Source: Anaerolineae bacterium
GTDB lineage: Bacteria > Chloroflexota > Anaerolineae > Aggregatilineales > UBA3940
DNA: 56,306 bases
Reading direction: 5' to 3'
Assembly (NCBI GenBank): GCA_016926255.1
Contig: JAFGOY010000079.1
Coordinates: 1-56,306 of the forward strand
In this document: piece by piece, positions 17,797 through 36,391 of the stretch
How the letters are laid out: each line of letters starts with the position of its first letter
How positions within the stretch are numbered: the first letter of the stretch is position 1
Notes under the pieces: model-generated
What the model saw: the letters and a program-made list of their open reading frames with translations, nothing else
Told to the model about the DNA's origin: nothing
Database searches by the model: none
Translations under genes and position numbers: made by a program

Positions 17797-20769
17797 TCAG
17801 TCAATTTCCACTTCGATTGTCACCCGCTCGCTCACCGTTGTATTTCCGGCGGCATCATAAGCCCGTAGCTCGATGAAATGCGTTCCCCGAGCGGTGATAA
17901 TCCACCGCTCGTTATAAGGAGCAACTGTGCTGATCGCAATCAACTGCCCATCGACATAAAATTCGACCCGATCCATCGAGATATTGTCCTGGACACTCGG
18001 CTGGATCGTCACAAACTCATCCGACAGGGTGTAGGTTTGCCGGTCATGAGGATAGAGAATCTCGACAGTTGGCGGCGAATTGTCAACTGTCAGCGGGATG
18101 ACGAATTCCTCCAGCGACGTGTCCCCCCGCACGACGGTCAGACGCAGACTGTACAGACCATCCAGTGTAAAAGCATCCCAGATACCGAGTTCTGCGTCAT
18201 AGGTTGGAGCAAAATGATTCGAGCCGATCTGTGTCCATTCGGTCGGGTTCAGTCCCTTTCCATAATCCAGTCGGTACAGTTGGAAGTTCTCATCCTGAGC
18301 ATTCCCCCGGATGGTCACCGCACCACGTACATAGCTGAATGGTGCTGGTTCGATGATCGCCACATCGCCATACGTATCAGGCGTTCCGACCACATCATAC
18401 TCGGTCGGTGGCTGCGGAATCCCCGCCTCACGAATCCAGTCGGCGGCTTCCACGGGGAGAATCATATAGACACGCTCCTCCACGTCTTCGGTAGGCGTAT
18501 AGACCGTCGCCAACAGATTCGTCATGCGGTTGACCAGGAACGGCTGGTAAACCGTATCATAGGCCGTCGGCTCATTACCGCTCTGGAATATTTCTGTTCG
18601 CGTCGGACAGTATTCTGTTGGCAGCATTCCTGATGTTTCGCAAACAGTCATTTCGACAATGTCAGCCGGTCGCTGCCATTCCTCCACCGGGCGATCCAGG
18701 TGCGCGTACTCCATCACCGCTTTCCACAGGGGAGCCGCCCCCACAATCGCCGGGAGATTGTCCATCGCCGAGTTGTCCGTGTTGCCCACCCATACTCCGG
18801 TCACGATCTGCGGCGTATAACCAATTGTCAGGTTGTCCCGGTAGTCGTTAGTCGTTCCGGTCTTGACCGCCGCCGGTCGGCTGAGTTGCAGGGAACTGTC
18901 CCGCCCTACACTTGGACGGCGGGCTTCGTCGTCGGCGAGGATATCCGTGATCAGGTAGGCCAGCGACGGCTCGACGATTGAGTTCTGCCCGAACGTCGCC
19001 CCTTTCCCGTATTCCCACAACACATCGCCGTCACGCGTTTCGACCCGTAATATCAGCGTCGGGTCGAGCGTCCGGAAACCCGGTCGGCGCTGGTCGAGCG
19101 GGGTTGGCATCCCCGACATCGTCCCCGTATTGGCAAAAACGCTGTAGGCATAGGTCATATCGTAGAGAGTCGTCTCCCCGCCGCCCAGTGTCAGCGAGAG
19201 GCCGTAGACATCCAATCCCCGGTCGAGTGTGTTGATCCCCATCGCATGCGCCGTCCGGATCACGTTGTCGACCCCCACCCAGTTCAGCACCTGCACCGCC
19301 GGGACGTTATACGAGTTCGCCAGCGCACTGCGGATGCTCTGCGGGCCGTGAAACTCCCGGTCGAAGTTTTCCGGCACATAGGGTTGGTTGCTGCCCGTAT
19401 CGAACGTTGTACGCACGTCGAGCGTCATCGTCGCCGGGGTATAGCCCTGCATGAAAGCTGTCAGGTAGGTGAACGGCTTGAAGGCCGATCCGGGCTGGCG
19501 TTCGGCCAGAGCGACGTTGTAATTACCCGCTATTGCCTCGTCATAATAGTCGAGGCTGCCCATCATCGACAGCACCTCCCCTGTATCGGCGTTCAACACA
19601 ACGACGGCGGCATTGTCGACATTGTGATCCCGCCCCTGGTGCTCTGCCGGTAAGGGGTGGAGATACTGGGCAGCCAGGCATTCCGAGCCATCCGAAACAG
19701 GTACGACAGTATCCGGGTTTTCTCCTGACAGGCGTGCGACGTAGGTTCGCGCTGCGCATTCTGTTTGCAGATACAGGTCGTAATCGAGCGTCGTATAGAC
19801 CACCAACCCGCCCCGGTAGACCAGGTCCGGGCCGACCAGTTCCTCGAGCTGTTTCCGGGCGGCAATCGAGAAGTGTGGAGCTAACAGGTTGAAGCGTTCT
19901 TCCGGCAGCTTGATATCCAACGGCGTCTCGTATGCCAGATCAGCCTGCCGCTGTGTGATATATCCCTGCTCGACCATTTCCTCAAGCACGAGTAGTTGTC
20001 GTTCCTTGGCAAGCGGGAGATTGTCAATCGGGTTCAACGCCGGTGATTGGGGGATTGCCGCCAGCATCGACGCTTCGGCCAGGTTCAGTTCGCGTGCTGG
20101 TTTGTCATAGTACACTAGCGACGCGGCCTCGACGCCGTAAGCCAGGTTGCCGTAGAAATTGGTATTCAGATACCATTCAAGGATTTGATCTTTGCTGTAC
20201 TCGTTGCTGATTCGGATCGACAGGATCAATTCCTGGAATTTACGCTCATAGCTGATCTCTGCCCGTTTTTCCGGGTCGATCAACACCTGCTTGACCAGCT
20301 GCTGTGTGATCGACGAGCCGCCCTGCACTGTTCCACCCGTCAGGTTGTTCCAGACCGCGCGGGCAATACCCTCGGCATCGTAACCGGGGTTCTCGTAGAA
20401 GGTCTTGTCCTCGATGGCAATCGTCGCATTGCGCAGGTCGGCGGGAATTTCCTGGAGTTCGACCCAGGTGCGGTCGCCGCCCAGCGGATCGATTACTTCG
20501 TAAAGCAGCACCTCGCCTGTTCGGTCGTAGATACGTGTCGTCTCGAAGTCTTCTTCAACGACGGTGATCGCCCTCGGTTCCGGAAGCTGCTGGGCATAGT
20601 ACGCATAGACACTGACCGCTGCCCCAATCCCGGTTACCGTCGTTGCCAGGGCCACTCCCAGCAGACTGATCACCGCAACCATCAAACCTCGCAGCAGCAG
20701 TTGTACACCCGTACGGGCCTGCTTCCGGCGCAGCCTTCGTTGTCGAACGATCTGGCGGACACTGGTCAC
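17797..20769 (-). CDS. Class A penicillin-binding protein with C-terminal Ig-like domains
   Basis: A 990-residue bifunctional peptidoglycan synthase. A basic cytoplasmic tail and a membrane anchor (about 27-52) precede the GT51 glycosyltransferase (about 75-250, catalytic Glu near 118 in AIEDKTFYENPG, and GGSSITQQLVKQ). The transpeptidase domain follows, with nucleophile in SAFK near 428, SYN, and KTGTT near 636. The last 220 residues form two beta-sandwich Ig-like modules ending in YDAAGNTTVSERVTIEVEID, outside the cell. The GT51 motif reads EN where EH is common. The start is a GTG with AAGGAG ten bases upstream. It lies 29 bases after the glycosyltransferase gene at 20799, so it may be read with the glycan locus. 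Confidence 0.93.
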   Translation of the reverse strand: MTSVRQIVRQRRLRRKQARTGVQLLLRGLMVAVISLLGVALATTVTGIGAAVSVYAYYAQQLPEPRAITVVEEDFETTRIYDRTGEVLLYEVIDPLGGDRTWVELQEIPADLRNATIAIEDKTFYENPGYDAEGIARAVWNNLTGGTVQGGSSITQQLVKQVLIDPEKRAEISYERKFQELILSIRISNEYSKDQILEWYLNTNFYGNLAYGVEAASLVYYDKPARELNLAEASMLAAIPQSPALNPIDNLPLAKERQLLVLEEMVEQGYITQRQADLAYETPLDIKLPEERFNLLAPHFSIAARKQLEELVGPDLVYRGGLVVYTTLDYDLYLQTECAARTYVARLSGENPDTVVPVSDGSECLAAQYLHPLPAEHQGRDHNVDNAAVVVLNADTGEVLSMMGSLDYYDEAIAGNYNVALAERQPGSAFKPFTYLTAFMQGYTPATMTLDVRTTFDTGSNQPYVPENFDREFHGPQSIRSALANSYNVPAVQVLNWVGVDNVIRTAHAMGINTLDRGLDVYGLSLTLGGGETTLYDMTYAYSVFANTGTMSGMPTPLDQRRPGFRTLDPTLILRVETRDGDVLWEYGKGATFGQNSIVEPSLAYLITDILADDEARRPSVGRDSSLQLSRPAAVKTGTTNDYRDNLTIGYTPQIVTGVWVGNTDNSAMDNLPAIVGAAPLWKAVMEYAHLDRPVEEWQRPADIVEMTVCETSGMLPTEYCPTRTEIFQSGNEPTAYDTVYQPFLVNRMTNLLATVYTPTEDVEERVYMILPVEAADWIREAGIPQPPTEYDVVGTPDTYGDVAIIEPAPFSYVRGAVTIRGNAQDENFQLYRLDYGKGLNPTEWTQIGSNHFAPTYDAELGIWDAFTLDGLYSLRLTVVRGDTSLEEFVIPLTVDNSPPTVEILYPHDRQTYTLSDEFVTIQPSVQDNISMDRVEFYVDGQLIAISTVAPYNERWIITARGTHFIELRAYDAAGNTTVSERVTIEVEID

Positions 20770-23202: not shown

Positions 23203-24234
23203 CTAACCAGGCTGTTGTTCTGATTCTGTGGGAGGCTGTTGACCGTTGAATTTCACTTCCAGCCAGATCAGCAGACCCACAAAAGCCGCGCCCAGGCCAA
23301 TCAGCACGATTCGCGCCTGGGGAACGGTTGCATCGCGCAGCATGATCGCGACCAGCCCCAGCCCGACCGACATCATATACAGGGTCATCACCGAACGCGC
23401 ATGGGTCATATTCAGAATGGACACCAGTCGATGCGAGGTGTGATCTTTTCCCCCCTCGTAGACTGGTTTACCCCGCCGGAGTCTGGATACGACCACCATC
23501 GTCGTATCGAAGATCGGCACCCCCAGCACCAGAATCGGGATCATCCATGTTGCACCCAATGGGCTGCCGACGAATTCCAACCGAATGCCCAGCACCGCCA
23601 GAATAAATCCCAGCAGCAGACTCCCGGCATCTCCCATGAACAGGCTGGCCGGGTTGAAGTTGTAATACAAAAACCCGACACTCGCGCCGAGCGTCGCCGC
23701 CGCAAGCTGCGCCACCGGTTCCAGGTTCTCGAACAGTGCCAGCACAAAGAAGAACCCGCTGGAAACCATTGACAATCCCGCCGCAAGGCCGTCCATGTTA
23801 TCCTGAAAGTTGATCGCGTTGCAGATGCCGATCACCCAGAACAGCGTCACGGCAATATTGAGCCACCGGGAATCGAAGATTTTTACCTGGATACCAACCA
23901 GGATCAGCAGCACGGTCGCGGCGACCTGCCCGATCATCTTGACCAGCGGAGAGAGACCAACCCGGTCATCCCACAGACCGAACAGGGTCATGATCGTCGC
24001 TCCCCCCAGTATCCCCAGTGTCTGGACAAACGACCGCGTGATCGCAATTGTCAGCGGGATCATGAACCCAAAATAGATCGCAATGCCTCCCAGCATCGGC
24101 ATGGGTGTACGGTGTACTTTGCGCGCCTGCGGGTTATCGACAAAGTTGACTTCTCTCGCGAAACGCCGCATCAGTGGAGTCGCCAGGAAAGAAATGACCC
24201 CCGATGCCAGAATGAGCGATATATATTTAGTCAT
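23203..24234 (-). CDS. Polyprenyl-phosphate sugar-1-phosphate transferase (WecA/TagO family)
   Basis: A 343-residue polyprenyl-phosphate HexNAc-1-P transferase with about 10-11 helices. Typical motifs are HRTPMPMLGG (41-50), the Mg-binding DD at 89-90 in LFGLWDDR, NFQDNMDGLAAG (Asp145, Asp148), FMGDAGSLLLGF near 200 and the basic DHTSHRL loop near 275. It attaches the first sugar-phosphate to undecaprenyl phosphate and so starts glycan assembly on the cytoplasmic face. MraY would show a different N-terminal loop and usually lies in the dcw cluster, so the WecA/TagO assignment is preferred. It lies between a GT4 gene and a polytopic transferase gene with short gaps. Confidence 0.93.
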   Translation of the reverse strand: MTKYISLILASGVISFLATPLMRRFAREVNFVDNPQARKVHRTPMPMLGGIAIYFGFMIPLTIAITRSFVQTLGILGGATIMTLFGLWDDRVGLSPLVKMIGQVAATVLLILVGIQVKIFDSRWLNIAVTLFWVIGICNAINFQDNMDGLAAGLSMVSSGFFFVLALFENLEPVAQLAAATLGASVGFLYYNFNPASLFMGDAGSLLLGFILAVLGIRLEFVGSPLGATWMIPILVLGVPIFDTTMVVVSRLRRGKPVYEGGKDHTSHRLVSILNMTHARSVMTLYMMSVGLGLVAIMLRDATVPQARIVLIGLGAAFVGLLIWLEVKFNGQQPPTESEQQPG

Positions 24235-24252: not shown

Positions 24253-25458
24253 TTATCCGCGCCGGTCGAGCAGTTCTCGGTACAGGGTTCGGATATCGCC
24301 TATCAACCGCGCTTCGCCATACTGATCATGGGCCCACTGTCGAGCCTGTTCACCCCGTTCATCTTTCCCACGCCTGAGCGCCTTTCGAATACCTTGCGCC
24401 AGTGCTTTGGCATTTTCTGGTTCGACCAGTTCCCCGAATTTCCCCTCGCATAACAAATCCGGCACACCACCTACCGCCGTCGAGACGACCGGCACATCGG
24501 CGGCCATCGCCTCGATAATCGAAACCGGCGTGCCCTCATTGCGTGAGGCGATCACCACAACATCCAGGTCGGCATAGATCACGGGAAGGTCAGCCCGCCA
24601 GCCGGTGAAACGAACCACGTCCGCCAGTCCCAGGTCGGCAGCCATTTCTTGCAGTTCAGCCCGCCGCTCCCCATCGCCGACGATCAAAAACCTGACCTGT
24701 GGATTATCTACTGTGATCGCTCTGGCAGCTTCCAGGAACAGTTCATGTCGTTTAATCGGCACCAGTCGCCCGATCATACCGACCAGCGGGGTATCTGTCG
24801 AATAGCCTAACTCCGAGCGCAGTATCCCCCGCTTGGCGTCGAGATCGAAAAACTGATCCAGTGGCAGGCCAAGCGGCACCACCCTGATCTTCTCCGCCGG
24901 TGCAATACGATACCCGATCAGTTCTTCGCGCAGGCGCTCGCTGATCGTCAATATCACGTCCGTCCAGCGTGCCGACATCCGCTCAAGTGTCAGGAAAAGC
25001 TGCGTTTTGATTCGACCGAAATATCCGTGAAAGACATGCCCGTGAAAGGTGTGGATCACCACCGGAACCCGCGTCAGGCGGGCGGCCAGCCGCCCCACCA
25101 GTCCTGCCTTTGCCGTGTGCGTATGGACGATCTGCGGTCGATACTCGCGCATCAGCCGGGTCAGCGCCAGCAGCGCCCTGAGATCATCCCGCAGGGAAAT
25201 CTCCCGCTGCAGCGAGGGGATGATCACCGGCTCGACGCCCATCTGCTGCGCCAGATAGCCCATATCCCCTTCCTCCTCGCCGATCTGCCCGGCGGCCAGC
25301 AGGCTTTGAAACCCGGCATCGTTCAGGCCAGCAGTCAACAGCGAAACATGCACCGCCGGACCGCCGATATTCAACCGGGCGATGACGCGCATCACCCGGA
25401 TCGGTTCAACTTCCTCTGCCAGCGGTTGGGGATCGCCCCGTTTCTCTTCACGCATCAT
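24253..25458 (-). CDS. Glycosyltransferase family 4
   Basis: A 401-residue cytosolic GT-B enzyme. The N-terminal domain starts at IRVMRVIARLNIGGPAVHVS, where the glycine-rich loop binds the acceptor side. HTHTAKAGLVGRLAARL and HTFHGHVF are typical of GT4 members acting on polyprenyl-linked sugars. The donor-binding EX7E motif is in EGTPVSIIEAMA near 320. Retaining chemistry is expected; the sugar is unknown. The ATG overlaps the stop of the epimerase gene in an ATGA arrangement, indicating translational coupling. The next gene downstream encodes the lipid-carrier sugar transferase, so it probably adds an early sugar. Confidence 0.93.
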   Translation of the reverse strand: MMREEKRGDPQPLAEEVEPIRVMRVIARLNIGGPAVHVSLLTAGLNDAGFQSLLAAGQIGEEEGDMGYLAQQMGVEPVIIPSLQREISLRDDLRALLALTRLMREYRPQIVHTHTAKAGLVGRLAARLTRVPVVIHTFHGHVFHGYFGRIKTQLFLTLERMSARWTDVILTISERLREELIGYRIAPAEKIRVVPLGLPLDQFFDLDAKRGILRSELGYSTDTPLVGMIGRLVPIKRHELFLEAARAITVDNPQVRFLIVGDGERRAELQEMAADLGLADVVRFTGWRADLPVIYADLDVVVIASRNEGTPVSIIEAMAADVPVVSTAVGGVPDLLCEGKFGELVEPENAKALAQGIRKALRRGKDERGEQARQWAHDQYGEARLIGDIRTLYRELLDRRG

Positions 25459-26399
25459 AAGTTAGTGCGATACCAGTCGACGGTGATCTTCATACCATCC
25501 AGGAACGAGATATGCGGCGCATAGCCCAACAGCCGTTCCGCCTTGCCGATGTCAGCCCGCGAGTGCTTGATATCGCCGGGACGAGGGTCTTCATACACAG
25601 GCGCTGTATTTTCCCCGGTGATCTCCTGCAAAATTCCAACCAGATCATTGAGCGAGGTTTGTCCGCCTGCAGCAAGGTTCATCACCTGCCCGGCCACTCT
25701 GTCAGCCGGGGCAGCCGCCGCCAGCAGGTTGCCGGCCACAACGTTCCCCACAAACGTAAAATCGCGGGTCTGTTCGCCATCCCCATAGATCGTTGGCGGT
25801 TGGTCATTGAGCAGAGCCTTTGTGAATTTGGGGATGACGGCGGCGTAATCGCTCTGAGGGTCCTGCCGGGGGCCGAATACATTGAAGTAGCGCAGCGACA
25901 CAGTTTCCAGTCCATACACCTGGAAAAACACCCGGCAGTAATATTCGGCGGCCAGCTTTGCTACACCGTAAGGCGAGATCGGGCTGGGGATCATCGTCTC
26001 GACTTTGGCTTTATCGACATGCTGATCGCCATACACCGACGAAGATGAGGCATAGACGACCCGCCGGACTCCGGCATCCCGCGCTGCCACCAGTACATGA
26101 AGCGTTCCGGTTACATTCGCCGCATTCGAGCCGACCGGGTCACTCACCGAACGCGGCACCGACGGAATCGCCGCATGGTGTAATACCACCTCGATATCCC
26201 GAACCGCTCGCTGAACGTCTCCGAGGACGGTCAGGTCGCCTTCACACAGGTCGACCCGGTCTCCAAAATCTTTCAGATTCTCCCGTCTGCCGGTCGAGAA
26301 ATTGTCAAGAACTCGAACACTATGTCCCTGTTCCAGTAAAGTCTCGACAAGGTTCGAGCCGATGAAACCGGCTCCACCAGTCACCAGATAGTTAGACAC
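25455..26399 (-). CDS. NAD-dependent nucleotide-sugar epimerase (extended SDR)
   Basis: A 314-residue extended short-chain dehydrogenase. NAD binds through GGAGFIG at 8-14, and the active site is SSSS at 118-121 with Tyr144/Lys148 in YGVAK. The DNFSTGRREN loop and RYFNVFGPRQDP segment are usual for UDP-glucose/GlcNAc 4-epimerases and related enzymes. It should make the sugar donor used by neighbouring transferases. Substrate specificity (UDP-Glc, UDP-GlcNAc or their acids) cannot be read with certainty. The stop codon overlaps the start of the GT4 gene. Confidence 0.9.
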   Translation of the reverse strand: MSNYLVTGGAGFIGSNLVETLLEQGHSVRVLDNFSTGRRENLKDFGDRVDLCEGDLTVLGDVQRAVRDIEVVLHHAAIPSVPRSVSDPVGSNAANVTGTLHVLVAARDAGVRRVVYASSSSVYGDQHVDKAKVETMIPSPISPYGVAKLAAEYYCRVFFQVYGLETVSLRYFNVFGPRQDPQSDYAAVIPKFTKALLNDQPPTIYGDGEQTRDFTFVGNVVAGNLLAAAAPADRVAGQVMNLAAGGQTSLNDLVGILQEITGENTAPVYEDPRPGDIKHSRADIGKAERLLGYAPHISFLDGMKITVDWYRTNL

Positions 26400-26425: not shown

Positions 26426-28348
26426 TCAACTGAAATAGCGCTGCAGCCACATCTCGAATGTGAACAGCGGCCATAGAATATGCCCGGCATCCACTTCCCC
26501 GCTGGTATGAATATCCAGCAGCGCATGCAAAGCAGAGGAATCGAGCAGGCCGTTTCTGGTCGCATAGCCATCTAACAGCAGACCCTCCACATCACCGATC
26601 TGCCCGTTACGAAACCAATTATCAACCGGCAGTTCAAAAACGCACTGCTGTCGGTTGATCAATGTATCGGGCAGGATGGTTCGCAGAGCCTGCTTCAATA
26701 TATATTTCGAGACGCCGCGCTTGACCTTCAGCGCAGACGGGATCGTAAGCGCAAAGCGCAGCAGGTGCCGATCCAGAAACGGTATTTCCCACTCCAAGGA
26801 TGCAGCCATCCCGCACCGATCCAGGCGCACCAGCAGATTGTCATAAACATAAGTCCGCATATTGACGTCGAGCATATGGGAGATGACATCAAGTCGTTTA
26901 CCATCCGCCGATGTCCCAAACATATCCTCGTAATGATGCAGTACCGCTTTTTCGGCGTCGTCTCCCATCAGGCCGACCAGCCATTCGCGGGGAACAAGCC
27001 TGATCAATTCAAGATAATAGTCGGCCAGCGATTGATCCGCCGACTGAACGATCCTCTGTGCAGACTTCAACAGCGTTCCATAGTCGAGTATATCCGGCAG
27101 GCGGTCGATTACGCCGCCAATCGCCCGGTTAGCCACCCCGCCTAACTGCATATAACGATGTGAGAGCCGCCTGATACGAAAGCTGTCATAACCGGCAAAA
27201 AGTGCATCTCCCCCGTCACCGACAAAGAGATTTTGACGTTCCTTGCCGATCTGATCACCCAGCCCCATCATCAGGATGACTGCCGGATCGCCAAACGGCT
27301 GGTCATAGTGTCGAACAGCCCGTTCGGCCAGTGCAAAGATATCTGGTGCAATTTCGATATGGTGGTGCTCGGTCACAAAACGTGCGGAAAGCTGCCGGGT
27401 ATAGCGGTTCTCATCGAAGCTGCTCTGCCCTTCCAGTCCAACCGACAAAGTTGTGATTGGCTGCTGGCTCTCCTGGGTAAGCAGCGCCACAATCGCCGTC
27501 GATTCGGGGCACTCGTTGATCAAAACAGTATTTGGCCGATTGGGATCGATCCGCTGGCGGATCGCGCTTCTCAAGTAGGCCAGCAGATCGACCATATATG
27601 ACTGTTCATGCCGCGTATCATCAGCATCCGGGTAAGGAAGCCGCCAGTAGACCTCAATGTGAAACTCTGGCCGGTCCTCGCTAAGGTCAATAGTTAACAG
27701 GCGTCCGGGCGGCAGCACCTTGATCGAATCGAACAATGTGTCCGGGCCAGGTGAATATCCATGGGCCAAGTAATGGGGAACCCGCACCTCGTTCAGCCGC
27801 CGCGAAACAGCCGGGTGGGCTAAAAGGGCTTTGATCTCCGAGCCAAACAGCAGCCATTCGCCGTTCTGGAAGATATACAGCGGTTTCTTGCCGATCTGGT
27901 CGCGGGCCAGCAGCAGCCTCTGGCGGGCATCGTCCCAGATAGCGAAGGCAAATGCCCCTCGCATTGATTTGATGAAATTGGGATAGCCATATTTATGATA
28001 GGCGTTTAAGATGATCTCTGCATCGGAGTCGGAGGACACCTGGAGTCTGGAGGCTTTCAGCGCCGCCCTGATCTCCCCCCCGTTATGCAGTCGCCCATCC
28101 AGCGCTATCCAGGCTTTCGATGCGGGCCTATCACCGAGAAAGGGTGCCACGTAGTCGATTCGCATCGGCTGGCTGATGGCTTCCGAGCCAAAGGGAGCTA
28201 AGAGAGAGCAACCCAAACCGCAGGGGCCGTTGACGACAACACCAAGATGATCTGGCCCCCGGTGGCGAAGTGTCTCCACCATTCCCCCCAGGATTTTCTC
28301 ATCAGGGCGCTGCCCGTTCAGGGCTAAGGCTCCGCATATTCCAGACAT
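26426..28348 (-). CDS. Asparagine synthase-like protein with altered active sites
   Basis: A 640-residue protein with the full two-domain AsnB layout. Both catalytic sites have lost key residues. The glutaminase nucleophile Cys2 is Ser: it reads MSGICG where the family has MCGI-x-G, and HRGPD at 29-33 fixes the register. The VYNGEIYN segment is LDGRLHNG. In the synthetase domain the ATP-binding loop SGGIDSS is NECPEST (278-284). The later GGD-LFAGY and the hydrophobic core are kept. AsnB-like proteins amidate acids, sometimes sugar acids in polysaccharides; this one probably has a structural or regulatory role, or uses different chemistry. A canonical asnB lies at 38552. The frame is intact, so it is not a decayed pseudogene. 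Confidence 0.88.
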   Translation of the reverse strand: MSGICGALALNGQRPDEKILGGMVETLRHRGPDHLGVVVNGPCGLGCSLLAPFGSEAISQPMRIDYVAPFLGDRPASKAWIALDGRLHNGGEIRAALKASRLQVSSDSDAEIILNAYHKYGYPNFIKSMRGAFAFAIWDDARQRLLLARDQIGKKPLYIFQNGEWLLFGSEIKALLAHPAVSRRLNEVRVPHYLAHGYSPGPDTLFDSIKVLPPGRLLTIDLSEDRPEFHIEVYWRLPYPDADDTRHEQSYMVDLLAYLRSAIRQRIDPNRPNTVLINECPESTAIVALLTQESQQPITTLSVGLEGQSSFDENRYTRQLSARFVTEHHHIEIAPDIFALAERAVRHYDQPFGDPAVILMMGLGDQIGKERQNLFVGDGGDALFAGYDSFRIRRLSHRYMQLGGVANRAIGGVIDRLPDILDYGTLLKSAQRIVQSADQSLADYYLELIRLVPREWLVGLMGDDAEKAVLHHYEDMFGTSADGKRLDVISHMLDVNMRTYVYDNLLVRLDRCGMAASLEWEIPFLDRHLLRFALTIPSALKVKRGVSKYILKQALRTILPDTLINRQQCVFELPVDNWFRNGQIGDVEGLLLDGYATRNGLLDSSALHALLDIHTSGEVDAGHILWPLFTFEMWLQRYFS

Positions 28349-28367: not shown

Positions 28368-29483
28368 TCACAGTTGTATTATGTCCTCGTATACTGACAA
28401 TGTTCCCCGGATCATTTTATCCACAGAAAACTGTTCGACCAGCCGCCGGTAACCGGCTTCGCCCAATCGCAAAGCCAGGGGCCGATCCGACAGCACCGGG
28501 GTGATCGCCTTGGCCAGCGCCGCCGGGTCGTCGGGCGGAACCAGCAGACCGGTTTCACCGTCGACGACGATCTCCGGCAGGGCGCTCACCCGGCTGGCGA
28601 TCAGCGGGCGGGAACTGCCCATCGCCTCCAATGCGACCAGCCCGAATCCTTCCCAGCGTGACGGCATAGCGATCGCATCGCAGGCAGGCATCAACTTGTA
28701 GGCTTGAGGCACCCACCCGGCAAACGTCACCGCCTCGCTAATGCCCAGGCTCTCCGCCAGTGCTTGCATCTCCGACCGCTGATCCCCATCACCGACGATC
28801 AGCAGGACCGCATCGGGGACAGCCTGCCGAACCTGCACGAAGGCATTGAGCAGCGTATCGACGCCCTTCTGCTCGATCAACCGTCCGAACATCCCGATCA
28901 CCGGCCTGTCGCCGCTGTATTCAAACCAGCGGCGGCCCTCTTCGCGTGCATTGGCCGGGAAATCGGGGGGATTCAGGCCGTAATGAACCGTTATCACTTT
29001 CTCCGGCGCGATTCCCTCAACCTCCCGAACGAACCGGTTGAGCGCTTCCGAAATCGTGATCACCCGGTCGGCACGGCCCATCGCCCTTTGATTCGCCAGC
29101 CTGATCGCCGGGTTGCGCCGGAAAGGGTTGTCGTTGTGCCGTGAAGAGATTGTTCCCCTCACTTCTGCTCGACGCGCGGCAGCCATCCCGTACAGGTCGG
29201 CGTGGATCAGGTGGGTGTGGAGGATATCCGGCTTGAGCCGATTCAATGTTTTGACCAATCGCCGGGTCAGGGTCAGGTCGATATGGGAGCCAATCGCCAC
29301 TCGTTCGACAGTAACCCCGCGCGCCGCCATCGCCTCGTAAAAATCATCGGCCCGGCGTGTCGGGTCTTCCAGCATGATCATGGTCACGTCGATACCCTGC
29401 CCGGCCAATCCAGGCAGCAGCATCAATAGATGAGTCTCCGAACCGGCGATGCCTGTCACTTTGCTGAGATGCACCACATGCAT
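28368..29483 (-). CDS. Glycosyltransferase family 4
   Basis: A 371-residue GT-B enzyme. It begins MHVVHLSKVTGIAGSETHLL, with the GT4 acceptor-side glycine loop, and has HTHLIHADLYG near 93. The donor site EX7E lies in EGFGLVALEAMG near 290, preceded by ACDAIAMPSRW. It is expected to transfer a sugar from a nucleotide donor with retention on the cytoplasmic side. Five bases separate it from the upstream DUF2304 gene and 19 from the AsnB-like gene downstream, so it belongs to the same transcript. Confidence 0.92.
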   Translation of the reverse strand: MHVVHLSKVTGIAGSETHLLMLLPGLAGQGIDVTMIMLEDPTRRADDFYEAMAARGVTVERVAIGSHIDLTLTRRLVKTLNRLKPDILHTHLIHADLYGMAAARRAEVRGTISSRHNDNPFRRNPAIRLANQRAMGRADRVITISEALNRFVREVEGIAPEKVITVHYGLNPPDFPANAREEGRRWFEYSGDRPVIGMFGRLIEQKGVDTLLNAFVQVRQAVPDAVLLIVGDGDQRSEMQALAESLGISEAVTFAGWVPQAYKLMPACDAIAMPSRWEGFGLVALEAMGSSRPLIASRVSALPEIVVDGETGLLVPPDDPAALAKAITPVLSDRPLALRLGEAGYRRLVEQFSVDKMIRGTLSVYEDIIQL

Positions 29484-29488
29484 CGCTA

Positions 29489-29845
29489 TCAGGCCTTATT
29501 CTCTGATTCTGATTCGTGTTTGCGTTCCAGTTCCCGCACACGGGTGCTGAGCAGCGCGATATGCTGCGCTGCCTCTTTGTTCTCACGGGTCAGCCGGGTG
29601 ATCACCACCGAAAACTGGATCATCACCAGCAGCATCAACCCAAACCCGATCACGAACAATGCGGTCGGTGGGTAGGCGATCCCCATCACTCCGGAAATCA
29701 TTTCAAGCAGGCTGTTTCTGAAAAGAGACAGGACGACTAGCACGCCGAAAGTGATCAGCCAGAGCAGCGAATAATCTTCCCTCAGGCGGCGGCGCCGTAC
29801 CAGTTCCAGCACGATCAACAGCATCAGCGCTGGCCCGGCGATCAT
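29489..29845 (-). CDS. DUF2304 membrane protein
   Basis: A 118-residue protein with three hydrophobic helices (about 1-16, 30-48 and 60-82) linked by the basic RRRRLREDYSLLWL segment. A charged coiled-coil C-terminus follows (RLTRENKEAAQHIALLSTRV). This is the DUF2304 pattern, a family found almost always beside DPM1-like GT2 genes and thought to help polyprenyl-phosphate glycosyl transfer. That is the case here: the GT2 gene ends seven bases before it. The ATG at 29845 has GAGGTG upstream and is preferred over an earlier TTG inside the GT2 gene. Confidence 0.85.
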   Translation of the reverse strand: MIAGPALMLLIVLELVRRRRLREDYSLLWLITFGVLVVLSLFRNSLLEMISGVMGIAYPPTALFVIGFGLMLLVMIQFSVVITRLTRENKEAAQHIALLSTRVRELERKHESESENKA

Positions 29846-29852
29846 GATCACC

Positions 29853-30650
29853 TCAACTCGTGGGATGTTCGTGAACAATCTGCACCTCCCTTACCGCCTC
29901 TGGCCGCTGGCGCAGCAGGCCGATGAAGATCGACATGATCACTTTGACCATGTAATAGCCTGAATGCAGAGGGGTAATCGACGACTGCCCACCGTAGCGC
30001 GGGTTCATCGTCACCGGCACCTCGGCGATACACAGTCCGGCCCGTTTGAGCGTTACCACCGATTCCGGCTCCGGGTAGTCGAAGGGATAATCCGACGAGC
30101 AGAAATAGATCGCCCGCCGATTCATTGCCCTGAACCCCGACGTCGGATCCGTCATTTTTTGCCCGACAAGCAGCGAGATGATCCCGGAGAGGATCAGTAT
30201 CCCCAGGCGGCGCAGCTTCGGGGTAATGTACCCCCGGTCTTCGATGTACCGGGAGCCGATCACCACATCAGCTGTTCCCTGGATAAGCGGGCTGACCAGT
30301 TCCGATATCTCGACAGGGTCATGCTGTCCGTCGCCGTCGACCTGCACCGCAACATCATAATAATAGTCGCGGGCAAACATGAACCCGGTCTGCATCGCCG
30401 AGCCGATCCCTAGATTATAGGGCAGCGAAGCGACCCGAACGCAATAGCCGTCGGCGATCTCCGGCGTGGCATCGACTGATCCGTCGTTGACCACCAGGAT
30501 ATCGGCCTGGGGCAGTGCCGTCTGGACATTGCGGATCACGCGTCCGAGGCTGTCTTCTTCGTTATAAGCCGGGATAATCACCAGCAGGCGCTGGTGTGCC
30601 GCAAAGTCCGGCTCTTTTTCGTCGAACGTCGCAATGACGTGCGTGGACAT
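29853..30650 (-). CDS. GT2 glycosyltransferase, dolichol/polyprenyl-phosphate mannose synthase-like
   Basis: A 265-residue inverting GT-A enzyme. IIPAYNEEDSLGRVI (30-44) opens the nucleotide-binding fold, VVNDGSVDAT holds the uridine/guanosine contact, and VDGDGQHDP is the DXD-type metal site. The segment SGFRAMNRRAI near 180 is characteristic of DPM1 and related enzymes. It has amphipathic C-terminal segments but no full membrane domain. It probably makes a polyprenyl-phosphate hexose donor for the polytopic transferases at 20799 and 40443. It is followed directly by DUF2304, its usual partner. Confidence 0.9.
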   Translation of the reverse strand: MSTHVIATFDEKEPDFAAHQRLLVIIPAYNEEDSLGRVIRNVQTALPQADILVVNDGSVDATPEIADGYCVRVASLPYNLGIGSAMQTGFMFARDYYYDVAVQVDGDGQHDPVEISELVSPLIQGTADVVIGSRYIEDRGYITPKLRRLGILILSGIISLLVGQKMTDPTSGFRAMNRRAIYFCSSDYPFDYPEPESVVTLKRAGLCIAEVPVTMNPRYGGQSSITPLHSGYYMVKVIMSIFIGLLRQRPEAVREVQIVHEHPTS

Positions 30651-30672: not shown

Positions 30673-31878
30673 TCAACCAGTGGCGCTGACACCACTGATT
30701 ATCACATCCGCCAGAGCAGTCGATACGGCATCAAAACGCCCGCGCCAGGTATGGTGTCGGGCTTCGGCCATCCGCTCTCTATCACGCCCATCGGGGGAGT
30801 GTACCGCTTGTCCGACCAGTTCTACAAACTCGTCCGCGCTGCCCGCAATAGAAATCAAATGGGCAAACTGGCGTGCCTCCGGCATATCGACCGAAACGAT
30901 TGGCTTGCCGGTGGCAAGATACTCGTAGAGCTTGAGCGGGCTGCAATGCTCGGCGACGGCGTCCAGCACATAAGGATTGACACACACATCGAACGCTTTG
31001 ACATAGCCGGGCACATATTCATACGGCACGCGGCCCGTCATTACCACATTCGACAATCCCTTCAACGGTTCAAGATCGGCCAGCAGGTCCGCCGGGCCGA
31101 CCATCGCCACCGTCCATTCCGGGTTTTCCCGCGCGATTCGCGCCAGTAGGTGCGTGTCGATCCAGTAGTTGATCCCACCCAGGTAACCGATAACCGGGTG
31201 TTTGAGTCCGACCACCGCTTCCGCCACCGGCAGATCGGGATCGGCAGCGCGGGCCAGATGTTCCGCTTCGACGCCGTTGGGCACGACCTCGGTTCGCTTC
31301 GCCCACGCTTTGCGCTTCTCGGCCAGCGCCGGGTGGGTGGCGATGAACAGGTCAACCGCTTCGATCAACCGCCGTTCCAGCCGGGCGATCACCTTCGGGT
31401 GGATCAGCCCCTTCGACGCGGTGAAATCATCGACACACTCATAGACGGCGACCTTTTCGTCCAGTTTACCGATGAAGTCAGCAGAATGTGGTGTATACGT
31501 CCAGACGATTGGTTTGTCGAACCCCAGCCGCCGCAGTTGGGCGCGCAGCACGGTCAGCAAAAAGAAATTATTGATCTTATTGATCAGCCCCGACATCTGG
31601 AAGAAAGGCAGCACGATTGGCAGCGTAAAGACCCACAGGTTAGGGACGACTTCTCGCGGGCCTTTCAGCCAGCGCCAGATGCGGCTGAACTGGTTCCTGA
31701 TGTCGACCAGCCACCCGGCGAAATGCATCTGCTGTTCGACGTACAGCACCCGGTTACCGCCTTCCGCCCACCAGCGTGCGAAACGATGCTTGCGGGTCGG
31801 GAGCGCCTCCCAGTCCTGAGTTGAGAGGATGACGAAGTCCTCCCCACTGATCGGATGTAAAGGTTGGGTGTCTGTCAT
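30673..31878 (-). CDS. Glycosyltransferase, TuaH/GT4-like
   Basis: A 401-residue GT-B enzyme. The N-terminal FVILSTQDWEALPTRKHRFA and NRVLYVEQQMHF segments are typical of TuaH-like transferases of teichuronic acid and related polysaccharide loci. The region VWTYTPHSADFIGKL ... YECVDDFTA is also characteristic. The C-terminal donor domain has CSPLKLYEYLATGKPIVS, in which the Glu of the EX7E-type site is kept. It should add a sugar in the cytosol; specificity is unknown. The ATG overlaps the oxidoreductase stop by ATGA coupling. Confidence 0.88.
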   Translation of the reverse strand: MTDTQPLHPISGEDFVILSTQDWEALPTRKHRFARWWAEGGNRVLYVEQQMHFAGWLVDIRNQFSRIWRWLKGPREVVPNLWVFTLPIVLPFFQMSGLINKINNFFLLTVLRAQLRRLGFDKPIVWTYTPHSADFIGKLDEKVAVYECVDDFTASKGLIHPKVIARLERRLIEAVDLFIATHPALAEKRKAWAKRTEVVPNGVEAEHLARAADPDLPVAEAVVGLKHPVIGYLGGINYWIDTHLLARIARENPEWTVAMVGPADLLADLEPLKGLSNVVMTGRVPYEYVPGYVKAFDVCVNPYVLDAVAEHCSPLKLYEYLATGKPIVSVDMPEARQFAHLISIAGSADEFVELVGQAVHSPDGRDRERMAEARHHTWRGRFDAVSTALADVIISGVSATG

Positions 31879-34037
31879 GATCCGCCGCTGTCCGGATCAG
31901 CCGCCGGGCTTTCCTGCCATGCCCGCATGTCGATGGTCTCGCCGCCACGCATGCTCTCTCGCGCCACCAGTGCGATCCGCGTCGCCCGCAGGCCATCCAG
32001 CCCGCTGACTCCCAGCGCCGCCTTGCCCTGAATCGCCGCGCCGAAGTTTTCGAGCAGCGCCCGGTGTCCCTTGTCCGCCCCACCCCGGATCGGCTGTCCG
32101 TGCATTCTGCTGAAGGCCAGCGTCTTGAAATCATCCAGCACGGCCACGCCGCCTCCGGCGAATGCCTCTACCCGTTCCTTTGGGAAGGCCGGGTCGCCCC
32201 GCCCGGTGTAAGCAACCACTCCCAGCGAGTCATCCACAAAGCGCATCGTGATCACGAAGTCCTGCCCGTCCAGGCTGCCCTGCGCGCTGACCGTCAGCGG
32301 GTCGCCGCCGATCATCCCTGCCACAAAATCTACAAAGTGGACGCCCTCACCCAGCAGCCGACCACCACCCTCGTTGAGATCGTTCAGCCAGTGTGAAGCC
32401 GCCAGCGGCCCGGCATTGACCCGGAAGATCACCGTCTTTGGCCCGCCGATCTGGTCGAGGGCCGCCTTCAATGCCTGCGCAGTCGGGGCCATCCGCCGGT
32501 TGAAATCGACTGTCAGCAGTACCCCCGCTTCCTGCGCCGCCTCGATCATCGCCCGGCAGTCGGCAACGGTGAGCGCCATCGGTTTTTCGACCAGCACGTG
32601 TTTTCCTGCCCGCAGCGCCCTGATCGTCTGCCCCGCGTGTAGATGGTGCCGTGTGGCGATCAGCACCACGTCCACGTCCGGGTCGACCAGTGCCGCGTCG
32701 AGATCGGTCGTAGCAATCTTCGCACCAGTCTTTTCAGCCACCTGCGCCGCTGACACGCCGTCGCTGATGACTGCCTGTAAATCAAAGAATTCGCTCTTTT
32801 TGATGTTCGGCAGATGCACCGCCTTGGCGAAATTCCCCGCGCCGACCAGCGCCAATCCGATTTTTCCACGCTTTGGAGTCGATGCCCTGACCAGCACCTT
32901 CTCAACCGCAGGCACTCCTTCTGCGGTGGGTTCGCCATAAGTCAGCAGCACGCCGACTGCGCCTTCCTGCACCGCCTGATACGCTTCTCCGGCCTGCTCG
33001 ACCGGGAACTCGGCGGTAATCAGCGAATCGAGGTCGAGCTTGCCATCGGCGACAAGCTGCAAGAACGCCGCCATGTTGCGCTGTTCCGTCCACCGGACGA
33101 GGCCATACGGGTAGTCGATCCCCCGTTCTTCATAATCCCGGTCGTAGCGCCCCGGCCCGGTCGAACGCGAGATGACGAAGTCGAGTTCGCGGTTGTAGAA
33201 CTCCGTCCGTTCGATGTCCATCCCCATCGCCCCGACCATCACCACGCGCCCGCGCTCGCGGCACATCTTGAATGCCTCGTTGGTCGGTGAGCTCGATTTG
33301 GTCGCCGCGCACAGAATCACTTTGTCCGCGCCCAGCCCACCGGTCAGGGCCATCACCTGCGCGGACGCATCCCCCAGCGTCGGGTCGATGGTCTGCGCCC
33401 CGGAGAGCTTCGCCGCCAGTTCGCGCCGTTCACCCACCGGATCGGAACCGATCACCAGACAGCCTGCCGCATCCAGCAGTTGGGTGGTGATCTGCCCGAT
33501 CAGCCCCAGCCCGACCACGACTACCGTTTCGCCCAGCGACACCTCCGCCCGGCGAACACCTTGCAGCGCAATCGAACCGACCGAGGTAAACGCCGCCTGT
33601 TTGTAGGCCACGCCGTCGGGGATCGTCGCCAGCAGATTCTGCGGCACCGCATCGACTTCGGCATGGTTGGCGAATCCCGCCCCAGAGCAGGCCACGCGAT
33701 CACCGGCCTGAAAATTGCCCGATTCGCGCCCCGGCTCGATGATCATCCCCGCCGCGCTATAGCCCACCGGGAACCACGACTCGGAAATGTCCTGCACCTG
33801 CCCCGCCGTAAATTTGATCCCTTCGCGCAGGGCCAGTTGGATCGCCCTGCCGATCAACTGCGGCTGTTCCAGCGCCTTCTTGATCAGGCTCCCTCCGCCC
33901 GAAGCGGCGGTCATCTCCGTCCCGCTTGAGATCAATGAGGCATAAACGCGTACCAGTGCGCCATTCGCCGGGGCCGCCGGAGCCGGGACATCCTGTACCA
34001 GCAGCTTTCCTTTTCCATCAAAAAAGACTTGTTTCAT
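31875..34037 (-). CDS. Two-domain oxidoreductase (MDR dehydrogenase fused to Gfo/Idh/MocA)
   Basis: A 720-residue fusion. The N-terminal part (about 1-350) is a medium-chain dehydrogenase/reductase with a GroES-like domain and the nucleotide loop GLGLIG near 175; SSGTEM replaces the catalytic zinc Cys seen in true alcohol dehydrogenases. The C-terminal part (about 388-710) is a Gfo/Idh/MocA oxidoreductase with ALVGAGNFAKAVHLPN and the catalytic EKPMALT motif. This bi-domain family is known from surface polysaccharide clusters and is thought to modify nucleotide sugars, but its reaction is poorly defined. It overlaps the TuaH-like gene and follows the heparinase-like gene after a 122-base gap. 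Confidence 0.9.
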   Translation of the reverse strand: MKQVFFDGKGKLLVQDVPAPAAPANGALVRVYASLISSGTEMTAASGGGSLIKKALEQPQLIGRAIQLALREGIKFTAGQVQDISESWFPVGYSAAGMIIEPGRESGNFQAGDRVACSGAGFANHAEVDAVPQNLLATIPDGVAYKQAAFTSVGSIALQGVRRAEVSLGETVVVVGLGLIGQITTQLLDAAGCLVIGSDPVGERRELAAKLSGAQTIDPTLGDASAQVMALTGGLGADKVILCAATKSSSPTNEAFKMCRERGRVVMVGAMGMDIERTEFYNRELDFVISRSTGPGRYDRDYEERGIDYPYGLVRWTEQRNMAAFLQLVADGKLDLDSLITAEFPVEQAGEAYQAVQEGAVGVLLTYGEPTAEGVPAVEKVLVRASTPKRGKIGLALVGAGNFAKAVHLPNIKKSEFFDLQAVISDGVSAAQVAEKTGAKIATTDLDAALVDPDVDVVLIATRHHLHAGQTIRALRAGKHVLVEKPMALTVADCRAMIEAAQEAGVLLTVDFNRRMAPTAQALKAALDQIGGPKTVIFRVNAGPLAASHWLNDLNEGGGRLLGEGVHFVDFVAGMIGGDPLTVSAQGSLDGQDFVITMRFVDDSLGVVAYTGRGDPAFPKERVEAFAGGGVAVLDDFKTLAFSRMHGQPIRGGADKGHRALLENFGAAIQGKAALGVSGLDGLRATRIALVARESMRGGETIDMRAWQESPAADPDSGGS

Positions 34038-34159
34038 AGTTATTTTGATTTCCGTTTACCGGGTATCGGCGAGGTCTTGATGCTCGCCCCAAACCGTCGA
34101 GGGTTAAAACGATGATCAACTATCTATACTGTGTGCGAAATGTAGTTCCGAACGGTTGT

Positions 34160-36391
34160 CTACTCTGATCCCAACACTTCCGCCATTTTTACCAGGGCCT
34201 GCTTACCGGCATTCAGTGCCGCTTCGGCATCGGTCTGCCCCTGGCTCGGATAGAGTACAAAAGATTGTTCGGATGGGAGTTTAACGCACCCGGCAAATTT
34301 GGCAACCGGCGCTTTCCGTTTGATTCCATAACGAGGGGAGTACCAACCATCGACCACCTCGGCTTTTAAGGATGTTGTTTTCAATGGCAGAATCATCAGG
34401 TTTGGGCCATCACTTTCCTGCGTGGCGACCGCGTTATTGTCAGGCAAAACCGACAGCGGCAGAGGGGCAAAGTGGAACCAGATCGTTGCTTTGATTTCGC
34501 CCTCCGGTGAAGAATTCTCGCCATAGGCCGCCGGCAGAACGAAGTCCCGGAGCAGCCAGAGTTTGTCATTTTTATTGAACCATATCACCCGCCGGTGAAT
34601 CACACCGGGCGACAGCCTTGTGTAGCCATCATGCTCAACATCCAGGAGATCGTAGCTGGCTTTGGTATGCCACCGGTGGACGGTCACTCTGGCCGCATTG
34701 GGCAGACTGAACAACTGATCGGGCAGCGGGATGATCTCTTCTTCACCGATCTGTAATACGTTGTGGGAGGCCGTCGAACGGAAGGCGTTGCGCTCTACCG
34801 GGTTAGAGGTGTAGAGGTAGCTCCCCGGGTCGATCAGGAACGTCCGGCCATAGGCGCTGAGTGTGATACTCAACGTGTCATTGTGAGCATGTCCGCCTGC
34901 GCCGTCCTGACCCACCCCCCCCGCATCGACTGTCAAATGGCAGTCGCCGCGCCGCATGATAGTCAGGCCGCTGTTTGGGAAAATGCTCGACCCGACAGCA
35001 TCGCCGGACAAGACGGGATTTTTAGCCATGGCACGGGCTTTCACCCGGACGCCGGGCTTGATGGTTATCCAGTCGTCAGGTGATATCCCCTCCGGCCTTG
35101 GCGTCGTATAGGTAATCGTGTCCGTCAGCCGCGAAGCCGCATCCGAAAAGAAGTACCACAGCGCTGCCTGCCATTCGTCGCCCGCAGCGATTGCCCACCC
35201 CTTTTCACGCGGATCGACAAACCCAGCCCATTCCCCAAGCTGCCTTTCCAGCACCATCGATCCAAGTGCCAGCAGTGGCCGGTGATCGTTCACCGCTTTC
35301 TCCGGGTTATCATATACCGAGAGCGGGAGCAGCCGCCCGTCGTCGGCATCGCCGATAACCGGGGCGGTGCCATCCGGCTGCGTGTAAGCCATGATCGCGT
35401 TCAGCATCTTGCCCAGCCGCGCCTCGACCTTGTCGGGAATCTCGATACCGTTTTGCAGGCACAGCCCGGCCACACTGAGTCCCATCTCCGTTACCAGCCG
35501 ATGGTATGGGATCGACGCCTCGTAATCCATCCCATCGGGGTAAACCTGGTTCTCAAGCTCATCCCACAGCCGCCCCAACCCCACCGACCGCCAGCGCGAG
35601 GCATCCCCAAATTCCGGGAACATGATCCCCAGGTAGGCCAGCCCGGTCAGGTTAGCGATCAGGTGATTGGTGCGCGGCCAGCCGTCTTCGAGATGCTTGA
35701 GCAGGTATTCGCCGTGCTGTTCGAGGCTCGCCAGCCACTTCGCTAGGAAGTCGGGGGTCAACATCGCCGACTCGATAACCATGTAATAGGCCCATATCCA
35801 GTTCACCACCCGGATCGCCACGTCCATCGGCCCGGCCCAGTTGACGCCGAACTCGTACGGGTTATGGTCGATCCAGTGCGTGATCTGGTTGACCGCTTCC
35901 TGCGCGTAGAATTCATCCTGGGTAAAAAGATAAGCCTGCCCTAATCGAAGCGCATGGTGAAAGCGGCTCAGTTCCCAGGGCACTTTCACATCGAACCCGC
36001 CGTCGGGGGAAGTCAGTTTCAGCCGGGTGTGGTGATCGACCGGCCAGCGGTACCCGCTTTTGAAGTCCGTATGCCAGTCGATCTCGCTGCCTGCATCCAC
36101 TTCGACGCCCAGCAGGTCGAACCGGTGCTCCCGGATTTCATCCGCCTGCTGGATGGTTAATCGGTAGGCTTCCGGGTAGAACTTACGAATCAATGAAGCC
36201 TGTTCGGGAAGCAGGCCATAAAATCGGGGCACCTGCCGCTCGCGGAGCTGCTCGGCGATTTTCTGAACGCTGGAACCGACCAGAATCGCGCGTGGTTCGC
36301 GGGGAGCAGTGCGGGTGCGCAGTTCGCGGACGATTCGACGCCATGCGACCTGTGGTAACTTTCGGCCTGGGACTGATGGTGTTTTACTCAT
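34160..36391 (-). CDS. Heparinase II/III-like protein
   Basis: A 743-residue protein with the fold of heparinase II/III and alginate lyases. An N-terminal (alpha/alpha) toroid (about 90-370) includes PMDVAIRVVNWIWAYYMV and GWPRTNHLIANL. A C-terminal beta-sandwich contains the family motif GGHAHNDTLSITLSAYGRTF, then IDPGSYLY and FRSTASHNVLQIG. The His/Asn of HAHND and the Tyr residues fit polysaccharide lyase chemistry, cleaving uronic-acid glycans by beta-elimination. No signal peptide is visible, so it may act in the cytosol, as related proteins in O-antigen and EPS loci appear to do. It starts two bases after a GT4 gene. Confidence 0.88.
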   Translation of the reverse strand: MSKTPSVPGRKLPQVAWRRIVRELRTRTAPREPRAILVGSSVQKIAEQLRERQVPRFYGLLPEQASLIRKFYPEAYRLTIQQADEIREHRFDLLGVEVDAGSEIDWHTDFKSGYRWPVDHHTRLKLTSPDGGFDVKVPWELSRFHHALRLGQAYLFTQDEFYAQEAVNQITHWIDHNPYEFGVNWAGPMDVAIRVVNWIWAYYMVIESAMLTPDFLAKWLASLEQHGEYLLKHLEDGWPRTNHLIANLTGLAYLGIMFPEFGDASRWRSVGLGRLWDELENQVYPDGMDYEASIPYHRLVTEMGLSVAGLCLQNGIEIPDKVEARLGKMLNAIMAYTQPDGTAPVIGDADDGRLLPLSVYDNPEKAVNDHRPLLALGSMVLERQLGEWAGFVDPREKGWAIAAGDEWQAALWYFFSDAASRLTDTITYTTPRPEGISPDDWITIKPGVRVKARAMAKNPVLSGDAVGSSIFPNSGLTIMRRGDCHLTVDAGGVGQDGAGGHAHNDTLSITLSAYGRTFLIDPGSYLYTSNPVERNAFRSTASHNVLQIGEEEIIPLPDQLFSLPNAARVTVHRWHTKASYDLLDVEHDGYTRLSPGVIHRRVIWFNKNDKLWLLRDFVLPAAYGENSSPEGEIKATIWFHFAPLPLSVLPDNNAVATQESDGPNLMILPLKTTSLKAEVVDGWYSPRYGIKRKAPVAKFAGCVKLPSEQSFVLYPSQGQTDAEAALNAGKQALVKMAEVLGSE

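Follow-up and report, generated by a model that had tools for sequence, protein, structure and literature searches.

Related systems

Beta-lactam synthetase and carbapenam synthetase are relatives of AsnB in which no glutaminase cysteine is known and whose ATP site still works. In P. gingivalis, a uronamide is produced by WbpS, which has been assigned to family TIGR03108 (PMC7468200). Pseudoenzymes are already a known kind of protein: PDX1.2, prozyme, the viral vGATs and SCRN1 lost catalytic residues while the protein was kept, as described in parts of PMC6829848, PMC8092204, PMC9140057 and PMC5201418.

The window, by which we mean the whole analysed stretch of 56,306 nucleotides, encodes at 26426..28348 an AsnB-like protein of 640 residues (P0001, here the window protein) on the minus strand. 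With WbpS/WbqG and TIGR03108 (XrtA/PEP-CTERM) it shared full-length homology and a polysaccharide locus containing an epimerase and glycosyltransferases; unlike them, it scored far below the family cut-off (as did its active sisters) and had lost both catalytic sites. It resembled AsnB (1ct9) and TIGR01536 in its two-domain sequence, its predicted fold and a score above the TIGR01536 cut-off, but was devoid of Cys2, Arg49, Asn84, Glu86, the SGGxDSS loop and E382. The beta-lactam and carbapenam synthetases were also matched by its predicted fold, whereas the window protein had lost the ATP site as well. PDX1.2, prozyme, the vGATs and SCRN1 are comparable in their loss of catalytic residues but belong to other folds or families, and a partner has been proven in those systems. 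Searches of the open-licence literature for AsnB-family or glycan-locus pseudoenzymes brought up no bacterial glycan-locus member of this family in which both sites are dead.

Gene, domains and catalytic residues

The open frame of 640 codons recorded in an earlier, sequence-only reading of this DNA was confirmed, the correct strand being minus: it ran from ATG through the stop, while the plus-strand translation contained stops. Pfam domains GATase_7/GATase_6 and Asn_synthase were above their cut-offs. The top NCBIfam match was TIGR03108 with 355.5 bits, below the cut-off of 816.9, which the active sisters L010 and L011 likewise failed to reach (554.8 and 581.2 bits). The equivalog cut-off of TIGR01536 (glutamine-hydrolysing asparagine synthase) was exceeded (298.0 vs 267.1 bits). 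Automatic annotation would therefore name the window protein an active asparagine synthase, and annotators should be warned that a dead protein can pass this 'asparagine synthase' threshold.

An AlphaFold model computed with 54 homologues displayed a pLDDT of 90.4 and a pTM of 0.91, the alignment being made of active homologues and so favouring an intact-fold outcome. The top Foldseek matches were TsnB9 (7ylz), E. coli AsnB (1ct9), beta-lactam synthetase and human ASNS. The AsnB fold is predicted to survive in the window protein.

The roles of Cys2, Arg49, Asn84, Glu86, the ATP loop, Glu382, Asp109 and Lys548 are presumed here to be those established for E. coli AsnB. Direct reading showed that the nucleophile Cys2 (TGT in L010 and L011) was replaced by Ser (MSGICG; codon TCT at 28343..28345, minus strand, like all residues and slot genes given below), as the sequence-only reading had stated. 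That reading had also given the glutaminase motif YNGE as LHNG. The motif was indeed altered but the register was wrong, since alignment to homologues placed LDGRLHN (residues 83-89, 28082..28102) opposite YNGEVYN, with replacements N84D and E86R. The ATP/pyrophosphate loop LSGGxDSS was replaced by INECPEST at residues 277-284 (27497..27520), in line with the NECPEST previously noticed. Direct reading and alignment further uncovered a loss that had escaped the earlier list, that of E382 in the second ATP motif, which read GDGGDA instead of GDGGDE (residues 377-382, 27203..27220).

In the alignment, positions 2, 49, 84 and 86 of the window protein were S, L, D and R, where C, R, N and E occurred in 100% of 125 other rows, counting rows with a letter there. 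Asp109 and Lys548 were retained. From these residues, the window protein would be capable neither of glutamine hydrolysis (Cys2, Arg49, Asn84, Glu86) nor of ATP activation (SGGxDSS loop, E382).

Active and dead orthologues in the same slot

Nine genomes of family f1, including that of the window (G000, in which the window is contig C30), were searched for the gene. Full orthologues in the same slot were encountered in G002 (L010, 46% identity to the window protein), G006 (L011, 45%), G007 (L012, 41%) and G008 (L013, 36%), with the same gene order around all of them. In G001, all that was seen of the slot gene was a C-terminal piece, which lay at the end of a contig and had active-like residues. 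The search yielded no slot orthologue in G003, G004 and G005 (87, 91 and 80% complete). L010 and L011, from two genera, retained every catalytic residue. Cys2, Arg49 and the ATP loop were lost in three genera, those of the window, L012 (MSGICG, KDGLAFN, LQGGLSSS, GNGGDE) and L013 (MSGICG, FNGEIYN, LDGDLNST, ADGADD). Loss of Asn84 and Glu86 concerned the window protein and L012; L013 retained FNGEIYN and Asp109.

Joint loss of Cys2 and the ATP loop was seen only in the window protein, L012 and L013 among 134 aligned homologues. Of the 130 reaching the N-terminus, 127 displayed Cys2 and these three Ser; the counts are no census, because the homologues were gathered by similarity to the window protein and partly with a motif filter. 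Judged from these alignments, the losses are neither chance nor generic divergence. A sequencing or assembly artefact was ruled out by intact frames in the same slot in three genera.

An order-level search gave matches at E 1e-95 or better in 61 of 154 genomes, and loci were obtained for 30 of the 61. In f2, another family of the order, active enzymes occupied a similar slot (G017, G013). The gene is classified as an orthologue of WbpS/TIGR03108-like AsnB amidotransferases in a fixed slot of a Chloroflexota glycan locus. Since related genera and another family keep the residues, catalytic loss does not extend beyond part of a single family. The sequence-only reading had assumed long conservation without either active site, and had held that catalytic residues in related orthologues would speak against it. 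L010, L011 and the f2 slot orthologues do carry them, and the dead versions evolve faster, so that long conservation is not supported. It had also advised looking for orthologues with the same replacements; the loss of Cys2, Arg49 and the ATP loop is shared by the window protein, L012 and L013.

A second case in family f7

Two MSGICG patterns, scanned across 396 genomes of the class, were matched in 22 and 11 genomes. Most were not AsnB; besides the window protein and L012, five AsnB-like proteins were recovered (L207, L208, L236, L238 and L240). L236 and L240, found elsewhere in the class, kept the ATP loop and had lost only the glutaminase side, and L238 ended before the ATP loop.

L207 and L208 belonged to one genus of family f7, from the same order as the window. 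The gene was present in 16 of 17 genomes of this genus, dead in three and intact in 13. The dead copies, L241:8802-10649 (G046:C118:52802-54649), L244 (G058) and L208+L245 (G048), displayed Ser2, HDGE instead of FNGE, Asp109->Ser, a loop reading LDG[GS]LDS, DE->A[AV] and loss of Lys548. All residues altered in them were kept by the 13 congeners. The most eroded blocks were again located in the synthetase part (269-480). A large neighbour gene was common to the dead G046, G058 and G048 and to the active G060 and G050; it did not turn up in G062.

The case was found through a Ser2 search, and its Ser2 is therefore not independent evidence for serine; its other losses are. Taken together, the two independent cases suggest that an AsnB slot was converted in place into a retained pseudoenzyme on at least two occasions. 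Each case sets active orthologues of one gene beside related dead ones, which makes the two a natural test of the change from enzyme to non-enzyme and of the selection that follows.

The glycan locus and the intact paralogue

The glycan genes formed a minus-strand run from 20799 to 42335 in the window. Domain search and slot comparison gave the following order: a large protein, a WecA/MraY-like Glycos_transf_4 protein (23203..24234), a GT4 glycosyltransferase of the slot (24253..25458), an SDR epimerase/dehydratase of TviC/GalE-like type that is the next gene in the conserved slot (25455..26399), the pseudoenzyme, the other GT4 of the slot (28368..29483), a small DUF2304 protein (29489..29878), a GT2 (29853..30650), a TuaH-like glycosyltransferase, a fused dehydrogenase, a heparinase II/III-like protein, a GT4, a GT2, the intact AsnB paralogue P0002 (38552..40441) and a PMT_2 protein. 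The fused protein (zinc dehydrogenase/GFO-IDH-MocA) and its heparinase II/III-like neighbour occupied 31875..36391, within a biosynthetic glycan cluster, and the order of this pair was conserved in G008 (L268). A gene for a PBP1-type transglycosylase/transpeptidase was located downstream of the locus (17797..20769); in G002 and G008, too, this gene adjoined the locus (70-72% identity).

P0002 displayed every motif (MCGIWG, YNGEVYN, SGGIDSS, GLGGDE) and was encoded ~10 kb upstream of the pseudoenzyme in the same co-oriented cluster, whose order matched G008. The co-oriented glycan locus with a normal asnB at 38552, as first read from the letters, thus stood up to the domain search and to inspection of these motifs. 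Recent duplication of this neighbour as the source of the pseudoenzyme was ruled out, P0002 being placed in another clade. The window's own genome also harbored, at a contig end, an N-terminal fragment of a further AsnB, in which Cys2 and NGE were intact (L066, G000:C70:24-791).

Proposed role and the possible partner

By analogy with the TIGR03108 member WbpS, which makes a uronamide, amidation of a uronic acid in the glycan is the probable activity of the active slot enzyme; the dead copy would not be expected to carry it out. For the window protein, the reading that we favour, and consider probable, is that of a genuine pseudoenzyme kept folded by purifying selection, with a non-catalytic subunit or scaffold as its likeliest role, perhaps together with the intact paralogue. 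A glutamine amidotransferase of the WbpS/XrtA type of the AsnB family would have occupied the fixed slot and then lost both active sites, its body being retained by purifying selection. The dead protein would now serve as a non-catalytic subunit or scaffold of an assembly of sugar-modifying enzymes and glycosyltransferases, possibly paired with P0002 from the same cluster. The uronamide-forming step would have been lost, or taken over by P0002. A non-catalytic subunit is the best reading because the body appears selected and because the slot between two GT4 genes and the epimerase is fixed. A more general proposal can be put forward tentatively: the fixed-slot AsnB amidotransferases of this Chloroflexota order may have turned in place, at least two independent times, into obligatory non-catalytic subunits, with losses at largely the same positions and the rest of the protein under selection, the window copy acting with intact P0002.

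A special case of the favoured reading would make the window protein a regulatory partner that forms a heterodimer with P0002 and activates or stabilises it. Both genes belonged to one co-oriented cluster in the window, and the same order was found across two contigs of G008: the first carried the P0002-type gene and the cluster and ended in a GT4, and the second started inside the same GT4 and led to the dead gene. A P0002-type gene was present in five of the six f1 genomes with a slot gene and in none of the three without (Fisher p 0.048, from a small and phylogenetically dependent sample), and all three dead f1 genomes were among its holders. Precedents are offered by prozyme, PDX1.2 and the viral vGATs, in the portions of PMC6829848, PMC8092204 and PMC5201418 that bear on them. 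Heterodimerisation is nevertheless far from assured, as P0002 displayed only 29-32% identity to the window protein and formed a separate clade in the tree. Furthermore, G002 has both a P0002-type gene and an active slot enzyme, which means that the partnership is not specific to dead slot genes. We regard this special case as rather doubtful.

Selection or decay

According to a second alternative, the gene is decaying: amidation would no longer be needed, and the frame would still be open because decay is recent or slow, or through polar effects in a tight operon. This seems unlikely, although several observations point that way. In the tree (48 rows; seven fragmentary or distant rows omitted), the terminal branches of the window protein, L012 and L013 measured 0.93, 1.08 and 1.31 vs 0.19 and 0.33 for L010 and L011, so that dead branches were ~3-7 times longer than those of the active sisters. 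Catalytic replacements differed per lineage, as if unconstrained (278 N/Q/D, 282 E/S/N, 568 Q/E/T). Conserved positions outside the catalytic sites were lost too, 22 of 86 in the window protein: the number retained was 64 (window), 61 (L012) and 67 (L013), compared with 82 (L010) and 84 (L011). For the 17 catalytic positions conserved at >=90%, the corresponding values were 7, 10, 9, 16 and 16, and concentration of loss at catalytic positions was significant for the window protein only (p 0.01; L012, 0.39; L013, 0.066).

Against decay, the 640-codon frame was intact, as were the frames in all three dead genera, whereas neutral simulation to 68% identity produced a mean of 8 stops and a minimum of 2 (200 runs). 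Identities between the window gene and L010 at codon positions 1, 2 and 3 were 0.556, 0.702 and 0.392, vs 0.27, 0.26 and 0.28 expected by chance. For the three dead branches, a branch model of codon evolution fitted to 611 codons from 7 taxa rejected omega=1 (lnL -13377.0 vs -13217.6), with synonymous sites saturated and time before the loss possibly included; because of this saturation, the fitted omega of ~0.09 on these branches is not trustworthy. When the neutral length was fixed at 1.5, 2, 3, 4 and 6, omega became 0.76, 0.56, 0.36, 0.27 and 0.18, each fitting better than 1. The highest of these values, obtained under an extreme short neutral clock, is the one most in keeping with decay.

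Divergence was also uneven along the protein. Identity to L010 was lower for the window protein than for L011 in residues 1-60 (55 vs 80%), 269-330 (45 vs 73%) and 331-400 (37 vs 81%), with little fall in 201-268 (46 vs 48%) and 401-480 (40 vs 44%). The extra divergence therefore peaked at both catalytic centres (1-60, 269-400) and was near nil in 201-268 and 401-480. The parallel clade of family f7 provided unsaturated estimates after a fixed loss: omega among the three dead copies was 0.216, 0.197 and 0.174 (dS 0.38, 0.37 and 0.23), and omega=1 was rejected in each pair (2dlnL 97.7, 107.2 and 83.6). Active f7 congeners displayed omega values of 0.015-0.095 in 21 pairs of seven, many of them saturated. 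The rejection of omega=1, the uneven divergence and the omega of 0.17-0.22 in the parallel clade agree with the initial idea of a pseudoenzyme kept intact and not in neutral decay.

The serine at position 2

New catalysis, with Ser2 acting as N-terminal nucleophile after removal of Met1 (a serine-type amidohydrolase) or with a remodelled synthetase pocket for another substrate, is quite improbable: Arg49 was gone in all three f1 pseudoenzymes and Asn84/Glu86 in two, and replacements at the other catalytic positions were not conserved among them, which speaks against a new active site in common. Position 2 was Ser in all three, which had been found by homology, with two or more codon paths (TCT, AGT) leading to it, and L013 preserved the glutaminase motif and Asp109; however, of the eight non-synonymous codons that lie one base away from TGT, with stop counted, two encode Ser, and Ser2 in the parallel clade, having been searched for, adds no evidence. 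Parts of PMC9140057 describe Ntn hydrolases with a serine nucleophile, but also SCRN1, a Cys-to-Ser Ntn relative that is not processed.

One or several losses in family f1

The window's Ser2 codon was TCT and that of L012 and L013 AGT, two base changes apart, which ruled out that Cys2 was simply lost once in a common ancestor. The dead genes may go back to a single founding event followed by separate erosion, or to several events, and the locus may have been transferred. An rpoB+rpoC tree rejected a clade of the three dead genomes (p 7.5e-11; 0.0057 with G005 added), and a clade of G000, G005 and G007 was not rejected (p 0.50). The neighbour genes did not reject a clade of the three dead genomes (p 0.135).

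In the tree of the slot proteins, the window protein, L012 and L013 clustered together (100/98) within the five-row family clade (100/100), with a risk of long-branch joining. Each dead row, when placed alone, fell on or beside the L010 branch. The three dead rows had in common the multi-base replacements V271R and S447E as well as Glu455: Arg271 (27536..27538) was a two-base change from the Val of both active sisters, Glu447 (27008..27010) corresponded to their Ser, and Glu455 (26984..26986) to Thr/Gly in L010/L011. The shared V271R and S447E argue for a common origin, and the founding change may thus have preceded the loss of Cys2. Where both rows of a dead pair had changed, they agreed at 16/66, 14/61 and 13/76 positions, the corresponding range for seven unrelated long rows being 8-18%; this agreement lends modest support to common descent of the dead rows.
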